22,972 nt of DNA from a virus, in the IMG/VR virus record IMGVR_UViG_3300025778_000083, positions 1-22,972 of that record; one strand, given 5' to 3'. Under the pieces are notes generated by a model, which was not told where the DNA came from, did no database searches, and saw only the letters and a list, made by a program, of their open reading frames with translations. Made by a program: the position numbers and the translations under genes. This document shows, in pieces, positions 7,717 to 10,073 of the stretch (positions are counted from its first letter, which is position 1; every line of letters starts with the position of its first letter).

Positions 7717-7918
7717 CTCCTAGCTCCTCTTGTATTAGTTTTTCTAAATAGTGTTGAGCTTTATATAAGTCCTCAATACCGCCTTTCTTTTTCCATCTAG
7801 ATACGTACTTGATAATGTTTCCTTCAATGTATCCGATGTTGTTAGCCATAATGTAATCCCATGTTTGGATGGAACTACGATAATGACTTCCTGCTACTTG
7901 TCTATCATTTGCTTTCAT
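7709..7918 (-). CDS. DUF3310 protein, 69 aa
   Basis: The sequence contains QVAGSHYRSSIQTWDYIMAN, GNIIKYVSRWKKKGGIEDLY and KAQHYLEKLI, the clear signature of DUF3310 (G-x-HY, N-x-I-KY-x-x-R-x-K, D-L-x-KA). The same domain is found in phage T7 gene 1.7, described as a nucleotide kinase, though that protein is larger. GAGGAGGG before the ATG is an excellent Shine-Dalgarno sequence. The role is probably in nucleotide metabolism; this is uncertain for the stand-alone domain. Confidence 0.85.
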   Translation of the reverse strand: MKANDRQVAGSHYRSSIQTWDYIMANNIGYIEGNIIKYVSRWKKKGGIEDLYKAQHYLEKLIQEELGDE

Positions 7919-8807
7919 CTATACCCTCCTCGTTTAATTCAATTAAATAGTTCTGATACTGCTTGCACCACTTACTTACTTGGCAATAATTAGCACAACG
8001 AGTACGCTCACCTGGCCGTATCTCAATCTCATAATCCTTACCAAGTTCATCTAGCAATTTAAGAGCAGCATCCATATCTTCCAATACGTATTTAGCTCTT
8101 ACACCGCCAATCTTTTTAATCGCATACATCGTAGGTTTTTCCCACATCTCTTTTGGAGTGCAGTCAGGTAATGGCTCACCTGTTTCAATTGCATACTCAG
8201 CTTCTGAATGCTTAGCAATGCGTCCTTTGATATATGCTTCACGCTCCTCAAGTGACCATAGCGTAATAGGAATACGTATGATGGCAGCTCTCGGATAGTT
8301 CTCTTTGTTCTCTGCTTCACGTGCTGACCAATCACGTAAGAACGCCACGATATTAAGACTCTTAATCGGCACCTTCTTATGTGTTTCAATCAACCATGCG
8401 TAGATGTTAAGTTGCTGTTCCCATTCAGGCTTGTCATTCATTGCAGACCATGTAGAGGTTAGCTTGTAATCAGAAATCACAATGCCATCGTCATATACTT
8501 CCTGCAAATCCACAGCGCCTGAGATCAACCAGCCATCCACCTCAGCATGTAAACGTTGTTCAACAATACTGTTCTCGTTCTTACCATGCTCTAATACACC
8601 ATGCATAGCTGAACCTAAGATAGACCAAATCATTCCTGACACATCTTGTTCCAACTCAGCATCATACTTCTTAGTGAGTGCAACAATCTTTGGACTATTC
8701 AATAACTGAGTAGCGGAGATGTTGGCATTCCCTTTGCTATAAGTAGGACGCTCAACTACGTTGACAATGATGTCAGGCAAGTTGTGCTTGTTAGTGATTT
8801 TCATCAT
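7905..8807 (-). CDS. RecB/Cas4-like PD-(D/E)XK exonuclease with possible Fe-S cluster
   Basis: The 300-residue protein has the full RecB-nuclease motif set: His69 (GSAMHG), Glu83 (IVEQRL), Asp100 (SGAVDLQ), Asp113-x-Lys115 (ISDYKLTS) and the Q-x-x-x-Y motif (QQLNIYAWL, ~131-139). Near the end, RTRCANYCQVSKWC gives Cys271, Cys275 and Cys281; with Cys216 these could hold a 4Fe-4S cluster as in Cas4 and AddB, although the spacing and the place of the first Cys differ. It likely resects DNA ends so that ERF can anneal strands. The start is ATG at 8807 or the adjacent ATG at 8804, after GAGGTGG. Confidence 0.88.
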   Translation of the reverse strand: MMKITNKHNLPDIIVNVVERPTYSKGNANISATQLLNSPKIVALTKKYDAELEQDVSGMIWSILGSAMHGVLEHGKNENSIVEQRLHAEVDGWLISGAVDLQEVYDDGIVISDYKLTSTWSAMNDKPEWEQQLNIYAWLIETHKKVPIKSLNIVAFLRDWSAREAENKENYPRAAIIRIPITLWSLEEREAYIKGRIAKHSEAEYAIETGEPLPDCTPKEMWEKPTMYAIKKIGGVRAKYVLEDMDAALKLLDELGKDYEIEIRPGERTRCANYCQVSKWCKQYQNYLIELNEEGIDESK

Positions 8808-9078
8808 CCACCTCTAGTTTAATTTTGCCTATGTAAGTCCAATTTTCAGTATCAGTTTTGCTTTTTGATAATTCAAATATGGCGCTTATGTCGCTTTCAT
8901 ACACATACAAATACTGTGGCTCTTTAGGCTGTGGTTTAATGCGGTATTCATATTCATTATCTTCATACCAATATGGTTGGACTAATGTAATCCATTCGCC
9001 TGTTTCTAAATGTTTAGTTTCAATCTCTACACCAGATGCCCAAGCTACAATCTCGTTATACCATTTGTGTTTCTGCAC
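8791..9078 (-). CDS. Conserved phage protein, C-terminal main part of a gene split by an HNH insertion
   Basis: From the GTG at 9078 the protein reads (M)QKHKWYNEIVAWASGVEI, then ETGEWITLVQPYW and EYEYRIKPQPKEPQYLYVYE. This is a common phage family (KHAxxIxxWAxGxxI...GEW...YRIKP) of unknown function. A longer frame opens at 9249 but is only the antisense-phase shadow inside the HNH gene; AGGAAAATATC before the GTG decides the start. The original 5' end appears to survive as the 9540-9632 fragment upstream of the HNH gene. The protein is probably still made and functional, since its first residues restore the family's usual N-terminus. Confidence 0.75.
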   Translation of the reverse strand: MQKHKWYNEIVAWASGVEIETKHLETGEWITLVQPYWYEDNEYEYRIKPQPKEPQYLYVYESDISAIFELSKSKTDTENWTYIGKIKLEVDDENH

Positions 9079-9547
9079 GATATTTTCCTTTCGCCATGTT
9101 ATGGGCTTCAATAGCCTCCGCCAAATCATCATATGTTCCAATGTTGTATCGCTTACCATCAGTTTGAATACGAACATTCCATTGTTCAGTTTCTTTTTTA
9201 AATGTAATTCCTGTATGTCCTGATGTATTGTCTTTTCTGATACCTGCATTATGTTGATTGCTCATATTTGTAGCTGGTCGCAAGTTTTCAATACGGTTAT
9301 CTGTTCTAATGCGATTTATATGGTCAATTTGTTCTGGCAATTCATCATTAAACATAAGCCAAATAATTTGATGTGCCAATCTTGGTTTACCCTCAATCTT
9401 TATTTGAATATATCCATGAGAATCTATTGAGCCAGCTTCATCTCCAACTTTAACTCTATTGGATACTTGTTTTGCCCAATATAATTTTCCATCTTCATAT
9501 CGCAATATGTTTTTTATTTCTTTTGCCCATTTATGTTGTTTATTCAA
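9056..9547 (-). CDS. HNH homing endonuclease with AP2 DNA-binding domain
   Basis: The 163-residue protein has an HNH core (LAHQIIWLMFNDELPEQIDH then NRIRTDNRIENLRPAT, ~58-93) and a C-terminal AP2-type domain (SGHTGITFKKETEQWNVRIQ and GTYDDLAEAIEAHN, ~109-150). This combination is typical of free-standing phage homing endonucleases, which cut an unoccupied allele and spread by repair. Its first residues (NKQHKWAKEIK) repeat the start of the genes on both sides, as does a 26-bp DNA repeat (9516-9541 and 9604-9629). It overlaps the downstream gene by 23 bases. It is therefore probably inserted into the 5' end of that gene. Confidence 0.9.
   Translation of the reverse strand: MNKQHKWAKEIKNILRYEDGKLYWAKQVSNRVKVGDEAGSIDSHGYIQIKIEGKPRLAHQIIWLMFNDELPEQIDHINRIRTDNRIENLRPATNMSNQHNAGIRKDNTSGHTGITFKKETEQWNVRIQTDGKRYNIGTYDDLAEAIEAHNMAKGKYRAETQMV
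9516..9541. repeat. Direct repeat, left copy (HNH gene start)
   Basis: This 26-base stretch matches 9604-9629 at 24 positions by eye. It covers the start codon region of the HNH gene, so the first codons of the HNH gene and of the fragment at 9540-9632 derive from one sequence. Confidence 0.75.
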
Positions 9548-9632
9548 AATACCATCCCCTTACATCACATCTGTTTTTAATCATTATCAATTTTATTTTG
9601 CTAATTACTTTTGCCCATTTATGTGGTTTCAT
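9540..9632 (-). pseudogene. 5' fragment of the split phage gene
   Basis: The frame starts MKPHKWAKVISKIKLIMIKN and stops after 30 residues, just inside the HNH gene. Its start has a good signal (GGAGTG nine bases upstream) and overlaps the stop of the preceding gene by 14 bases. The first nine residues match the usual N-terminus of the family whose main body is now at 8791-9078; after that the sequence becomes unrelated. The simplest reading is that this is the original start of that gene, cut off by insertion of the HNH gene. A short functional peptide cannot be excluded. Confidence 0.6.
9604..9629. repeat. Direct repeat, right copy (start of the split gene)
   Basis: This is the partner of 9516-9541 (24 of 26 bases identical), 88 bases apart. 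It covers the first codons of the 5' gene fragment. Confidence 0.75.
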
Positions 9633-9807
9633 AGTTTGTCACTCCAAATGCAGTTCTACTTGCTTTCCAAGCTTTTTCTAATTCATTCCATAATGTCTGA
9701 CTATCTACATATTTACCATCAACTGTTTTAATGTTAGTGATGGCAATGATGGCATCTTCTATTGAGTCATTGTCCCCTGTGCTTTGGTATTTAAGGTCTA
9801 GGCTCAC
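9619..9807 (-). CDS. Hypothetical protein, 62 aa
   Basis: It starts MSLDLKYQSTGDNDSIEDAI and has the segments IAITNIKTVDGKYV and SQTLWNELEKAWKASRTAFG. The GTG start overlaps the previous stop as GTGA. The Trp-rich helix at ~39-53 is the only notable element. The family is not recognised. It was probably followed directly by the gene that has since been split by the HNH insertion. Confidence 0.6.
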   Translation of the reverse strand: MSLDLKYQSTGDNDSIEDAIIAITNIKTVDGKYVDSQTLWNELEKAWKASRTAFGVTNYETT

Positions 9808-10073
9808 TTATGCGCCTCTTTAACCAATGCATCAGCTAACACGAATACCTTTTCAGTAAAACGTGAGATAGATACATGGCCTTCAGTGATGGTAATGTCC
9901 ATGCCTTTAAGTACATAATCTGCGACTGCCACAGCAAACTGGTTGCGAAGTGTATTATCTTGCGTAATACGCAAATCTGCTGAACCTCCTGCTACGACTG
10001 TTGCCTTTTCTTTTGCGACTGGCGCAGAAACTTTAGCTGTTACTTCTACTTCTTGATTGTTTTCAGATTTCAC
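9804..10073 (-). CDS. Hypothetical protein, 89 aa
   Basis: It reads (M)KSENNQEVEVTAKVSAPVAK at the start and VADYVLKGMDITITEGHVSI later. The first 30 residues are low-complexity (Val, Ala, Lys, Glu) and likely disordered; the rest forms a helix-strand domain. The GTG at 10073 follows GGAGG at proper spacing, so I prefer it to the TTG at 10085. It overlaps the preceding gene by 11 bases. The family is unknown. Confidence 0.65.
   Translation of the reverse strand: MKSENNQEVEVTAKVSAPVAKEKATVVAGGSADLRITQDNTLRNQFAVAVADYVLKGMDITITEGHVSISRFTEKVFVLADALVKEAHK

Follow-up and report, generated by a model that had tools for sequence, protein, structure and literature searches.

Comparison with related viral contigs indicates that the window, a stretch of 22,972 nucleotides from a freshwater phage (IMG/VR record IMGVR_UViG_3300025778_000083), carries an HNH endonuclease gene that interrupts the start of a gene from a real family, with the start codons duplicated around it; to this extent an earlier sequence-only reading stands. 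The arrangement is best read, on the alignments described below, as the N-terminal mirror image of the fungal homing genes that replace the C-terminus of their host gene, and it sits at a gene-start block that is also used for gene insertion.

Three near-identical N-termini, as noticed in that earlier reading, follow one another on the minus strand at 9632, 9547 and 9078. The ATG at 9632 opens a 30-codon ORF (MKPHKWAKVISKIKLIMIKNRCDVRGWYFE, then a stop; 9540–9632) beginning MKPHKWAKVI, the TTG at 9547 opens a 163-residue HNH protein (9056–9547) beginning (M)NKQHKWAKEIK, and the GTG at 9078 opens a 95-residue protein (8791–9078) beginning QKHKWYNEIVAWASG, i.e. (V)QKHKWYNEIV. Plausible Shine-Dalgarno sequences were recognized by eye before each of them (GGAG, AGGGG and AAAGGA, respectively). 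The main body of the split gene has the new GTG and ribosome site (AAAGGA) that had been claimed for it, and both proteins are predicted to stay translatable after the insertion; the last 23 bases of the HNH frame are shared with the gene downstream. Within 8791–9632, the strongest 26-base direct repeat without gaps joins the starts at 9632 and 9547 with the 24 matches previously reported, whereas the best repeats in 200 first-order Markov shuffles averaged 18.7 matches and never exceeded 21. The copy at 9078 is a repeat at the protein level, with 18 of 33 bases matching the copy at 9547. Four other IMG/VR contigs are identical in arrangement over whatever part of the region they include, and the state with both mini-ORF (the 30-codon ORF) and HNH gene is known from one virus only.

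The HNH protein contains the nuclease domain (Pfam HNH_3, 49.5 bits against a cut-off of 24.8, 3e-13) and matches PHROG 99 (3e-59), with a weak AP2 match below the Pfam cut-off. The same gene occupies a defined site in the window and in two otherwise different contigs, L171 and L167, where the copies are 92% and 97% identical in different surroundings, and it is absent in a third contig, L108. Upstream of the start tag in L171 lies unrelated DNA with no mini-ORF ahead of the HNH gene, which begins there with MKQHKWHKEIK; the L167 contig starts within the HNH gene. The 5′ tags of the gene differ by locus: the window shares HKWAKEIK with L108, and L171 has HKWHKEIK.

The HNH-free L108 (L176 in full orientation) identifies which of the starts is resident. 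There, the mini-ORF MKPHKWHKVIRNIRFMFIKDKCDVRGWYFE comes first and is overlapped by a TTG, from which an intact family member LNKPHKWAKEIKAWADGAEIQ starts; this TTG start with its first 36 bases matches the HNH start of the window at 35 positions, with the upstream sequence also shared. Because of this match, the tag at 9512–9547 (TTG-NKQHKWAKEIK) is taken as the resident start of the split gene, now fused to an HNH body that runs from about 9511, the insertion point being after codon 11–12 (KEIK/AWADG), or between codons 12 and 13 when numbered from the L108 TTG. The 30-codon ORF had been interpreted as the stump of the original start and the HNH gene as the user of a copy of it; instead, L108 carries the same ORF directly before an intact gene, and the HNH gene uses the resident start itself. 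Likewise, the expected in-frame fusion of 9632 with 9078 is not found in HNH-free relatives, in which the junction lies at 9547 after the codons NKxHKWAKEIK. Since the mini-ORF is a separate, older insert, the junction of the split gene is 9547/9078 and not 9632/9078. Outside the start region L108 differs from the window, so that it represents the empty state of the start block only and not one half of a near-isogenic pair.

The tag at 9019–9078 (GTG-QKHKWYNEIVAWASGVEIE), whose initial 23 bases are also read, in a second frame, as the HNH C-terminus, has a different affinity, matching L171 at 54 and L167 at 55 of 60 bases but L108 at only 37. Downstream similarity to L171 and L167 spans the HNH end and GTG-QKHKWYNEIVAWASG-(V/A)-x-I-E (~60 bases) and then drops until the central block, so that past this shared segment the split gene diverges to 61% (L171) and 45% (L167) amino acid identity. 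The YNEIV form of the tag occurs in just 4 of 69 distinct family members, three of which carry the window-type HNH gene, compared with none of the other 65. By these comparisons, the GTG copy at 9078 came with the HNH gene, with which it is associated across loci. In the fourth member, L087, this tag DNA is present but no HNH gene, in surroundings otherwise occupied by HKWHKEIK tags, which suggests that the tag was transferred by itself or that the HNH gene has been lost; given this case, YNEIV may also be an ordinary tag variant and not HNH cargo. The insertion in the window carries a divergent copy of the host-gene terminus, and the resident terminus is retained beyond the inserted ORF.

The mini-ORF (9540–9632, minus strand) consists of an HKW start tag and the body VISKIKLIMIKNRCDVRGWYFE, with a stop that overlaps the next start (TTGAATAA). 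Its body (VIRKLRWMVIKNRCDVRGWYFE) recurs with the N-terminus TKDEALKI in L173, L174, L175, L177 and L179, where the gene behind it belongs to a different family that itself begins TKDEALK or NKDEA, and in L178/L115 the mini-ORF has the HKW N-terminus and precedes the TKDEALK-type family. Because the body occurs with other tags and before an unrelated family, we consider the mini-ORF an independent insert with exchangeable start tags; judged from its presence in the L108 type, it is older than the HNH gene. An origin as an HNH remnant was considered and ruled out by L108 and by six contigs with another gene behind the ORF. Pairwise, non-independent comparisons gave 37 synonymous and 100 non-synonymous codon differences, and changes were more frequent at third codon positions than at first or second; this excess suggests that the mini-ORF is coding. 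No relatives of it were found in annotated phage collections. In L115/L178 (2221–2319), an HKW-tagged mini-ORF is followed by a TKDEALK/DUF551-type gene and then by an HKW family member, with the two insert systems interleaved. Four successive, otherwise unrelated ORFs in L179 (minus strand; 519, 674, ~900 and 973 in reversed coordinates) share an N-terminus of the TKDEALK type (KNEAI being a close form), which repeats the chain of starts seen for HKW with a different tag, and the last of them represents the owner family (EALEQPAQEPVG / LYTHPHQWQGLTDDEI).

A search of IMG/VR viral contigs with the 95-residue protein of the split gene (8791–9078, minus strand) yielded 79 loci, and the family comparison took in 69 distinct proteins; the family pattern was read from an alignment made by eye. 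Members begin with M-x-x-HKWHKEIKAWADGAEIE or close variants (in the general form HKWxKEIKAWADGxEIE), followed by a variable stretch, the central block YRIKPQPKEPQYLYVY (8899–8946 in the window), a second variable stretch and GKIKLE. Among members, the DNA of the start block varies by synonymous changes while its protein sequence is conserved. The family is mosaic, as 22 of 1653 pairs share the first variable region and differ in the second or the reverse, with breakpoints at YRIKPQPKEPQYLYVY; since the same halves are paired with unrelated other halves, the conserved blocks appear to be recombination points. PHROG matches of the split gene were weak and to unannotated families, annotated phage collections contained one weak relative (28% identity), and the genome contigs searched contained one, in a betaproteobacterial MAG. 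Two contigs each carry two full copies of an HKW-family gene, adjacent in L126 (1757 and 2109) and at 600 and 3004 in L102.

A scan of the whole collection for HKWxKEIK with the next codon starting in a base other than G returned family variants, chance matches away from starts and four kinds of inserted gene: HNH, a TM protein (L186), a 54-residue protein (L188/L206) and a 129-residue protein (L207). All four directly precede a family member, as does a lipoprotein-like gene with a looser tag in L160. The first 33 bases are copied on both flanks with 33 of 33 matches for the TM protein and the 54-residue protein and 32 of 33 for the 129-residue protein, figures to be read against the 59% of unrelated tag pairs of the same type that are also identical over 33 bases. 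Because such identity is common among unrelated tags, an empty site is the stronger evidence: L206 aligns on both sides with L125 and L134, and its 128-base insert is flanked by a duplication of exactly 33 bases. In L149, an HNH gene of a second, independent lineage (40% identical; 2541–3001) abuts the start of a family member, whose first codons overlap the HNH C-terminus; the start of this HNH gene (ATGAAACCACA) agrees with the tag only over the initial 11 bases. Judging from these alignments, the site is a hotspot for the entry of unrelated genes, including the second HNH lineage. Among 53,871 neighboring start pairs, a sample biased by the loci having been fetched through the HKW gene family, 10 had at least 20 of 24 matching bases, mostly from the HKW and TKDEALK families. 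We found no relatives of two of the inserted genes in annotated phage collections.

Insertion at the start block has to be weighed against a course in which duplication came first, with a tandem copy of the whole gene arising and the body of the upstream copy later replaced by HNH, mini-ORF or others while its start codons were kept. Tandem full copies are indeed present in L126, two copies are found in L102, and family members do recombine at conserved blocks, but the L206/L125/L134 comparison reveals a 33-base duplication that is clean, lacking remnants of another gene body and any repeated ribosome site, and the 33-base limit common to three unrelated inserts is not something that body replacement requires, leaving this course unlikely. 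We rate as distinctly improbable the proposal that the shared N-terminus is a protein-level signal, such as a binding peptide, kept by selection with an incidental gene order. Such a signal would fit the protein-level conservation and synonymous changes of the block among family members, yet it leaves the exact pair of empty and filled sites unexplained, and every true tagged non-family gene in the collection-wide scan lies directly before a family member. The identity of the flanking copies as DNA also speaks against it, weakly when taken alone in view of the unrelated pairs with the same identity.

The remaining two alternatives concern the HNH gene itself. A split at 9632 that left a 30-codon stump and placed HNH on a copied start was suggested by the 24-match repeat between the first two starts and the good ribosome site before 9632, but it is contradicted by the ORF standing before an intact gene in HNH-free L108, by six further contigs in which its body precedes genes of an unrelated family and by the L171 HNH gene with no such ORF upstream, and we now give it very little weight. 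HNH genes often lie in introns, and the starts could then be exon remnants around a self-splicing intron or an intein; no Rfam match at E ≤ 1 was obtained in 8600–9900, however, no intein domain was among the Pfam matches, and splicing would be unneeded for a gene with its own start after HNH, so this explanation has almost no credibility.

The closest known systems are fungal mitochondrial homing-endonuclease ORFs with a replacement C-terminus, described in Allomyces atp6 and in Glomus atp6, atp9, cox2 and nad3, for which mobility has been demonstrated and the displaced terminus matches relatives (PMC3630166). In common with them, the window has an endonuclease gene within a coding gene together with a divergent terminus copy, a displaced resident terminus that matches HNH-free relatives, and a host gene readable as a hybrid. 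The window differs in that the replaced end is the N-terminus and not the C-terminus, the setting is a phage and the enzyme is of the HNH/AP2 type; in addition, the displaced start now serves the endonuclease, whose coding end overlaps the donor terminus. To our knowledge, all described terminus-replacing homing ORFs replace the C-terminus, and a limited literature search found no description of an N-terminal form.

Resemblances to other phage systems are partial. The free-standing HNH/AP2 homing endonucleases of tailed phages (PHROG 99) are of the same family, with an intact HNH_3 domain and nested among phage genes, but the few members examined in annotated phages keep their own N-terminus with no repeat of the next gene's start; among the few HNH relatives checked in Klebsiella, Salmonella and Pseudomonas phages, no copied neighbor start was seen. 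Start-Associated Sequences of cluster K mycobacteriophages are likewise repeats that accompany numerous unrelated genes at their starts (PMC3203893), but these are 13 bases long and upstream of the start codon, whereas the block in the window is inside the coding region and translated. We found no conserved 13-base GGGATAGGAGCCC upstream, and the upstream sequences differ between the start copies. Lambda ninR is an example of linker or boundary-sequence mosaicism in lambdoid phages. The short conserved blocks that join unrelated pieces in such mosaicism and in phage protein-fragment shuffling (PMC10684548) are comparable, except that the block described here consists of the 11 opening codons of a gene and has entire small genes between two of its copies.

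Taken together, we think it likely that the start block serves as an insertion point, where the HNH gene would arrive with a replacement N-terminus through homing and co-conversion and other inserts probably through recombination. In the sequences compared, the conserved start block (the first ~11–20 codons) belonged to an intact gene, and in HNH-free L108 the mini-ORF is already ahead of it. The HNH gene entered after codon 11–12 and now has the resident start and ribosome site, with a chimaeric N-terminus, and the divergent replacement start (GTG-QKHKWYNEIVAWASG) brought by the HNH unit and overlapping its 3′ end restores the interrupted gene. The start block of HNH-free alleles may be the cleavage target of the HNH protein, and both HNH and the replacement start would then be copied when the break is repaired on an HNH-bearing phage template (homing with co-conversion). 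A carrier would be protected because its target is split and the incoming start sequence is divergent, and both products would presumably be expressed. We know of no mobility enzyme for the non-HNH inserts. For these (the TM protein, two uncharacterized proteins and the mini-ORF), recombination between start blocks is the probable route of entry, perhaps with the help of the Erf-family single-strand annealing protein that the phage encodes (6964–7716, minus strand; Pfam ERF 1.5e-12, PHROG 155 7e-24), a candidate recombinase of a type that acts on short, diverged homology (PMC3945230).

More tentatively, the start blocks of two unrelated families (HKWxKEIK and TKDEALK) could be general docking sites, with repeated insertion at a fixed codon, takeover of the start and a precise ~33-base duplication; homing nucleases would be one class of passenger, and recombinase-driven cassette traffic would move the rest. 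If so, chains of unrelated genes with one N-terminus would result. The arrangement in the window suggests that a homing gene can invade coding sequence with neither intron nor intein and without killing the gene, by taking the resident start and carrying a spare. With the exact 33-base duplication found around other genes at this point, one way in which phages gain small genes becomes directly testable, and shared N-termini of this kind can mislead homology searches and start calling.

The surroundings of the insertion also vary between relatives. L006, which is 88% identical in the downstream PD-(D/E)XK exonuclease gene (7905–8807, minus strand; Pfam PDDEXK_1, PHROG 2139), is missing the entire 1,000-base block of 62-residue protein gene, mini-ORF, HNH gene and split gene (8804–9803, minus strand). 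It aligns to 10394–9804 of the window and resumes at 8803 with a 3-base overlap, the flanking genes being joined at a stop/start boundary, and with this clean junction the block behaves as one gene-boundary insertion. The exonuclease relatives L006–L009 were rejected as HNH-free controls because, with the whole block missing, they are uninformative on the HNH junction; L006 still provides the clean block boundary. Elsewhere in the window, two more ORFs (1311–1868 and 4583–4957) have HNH-like cysteine/histidine patterns by eye.
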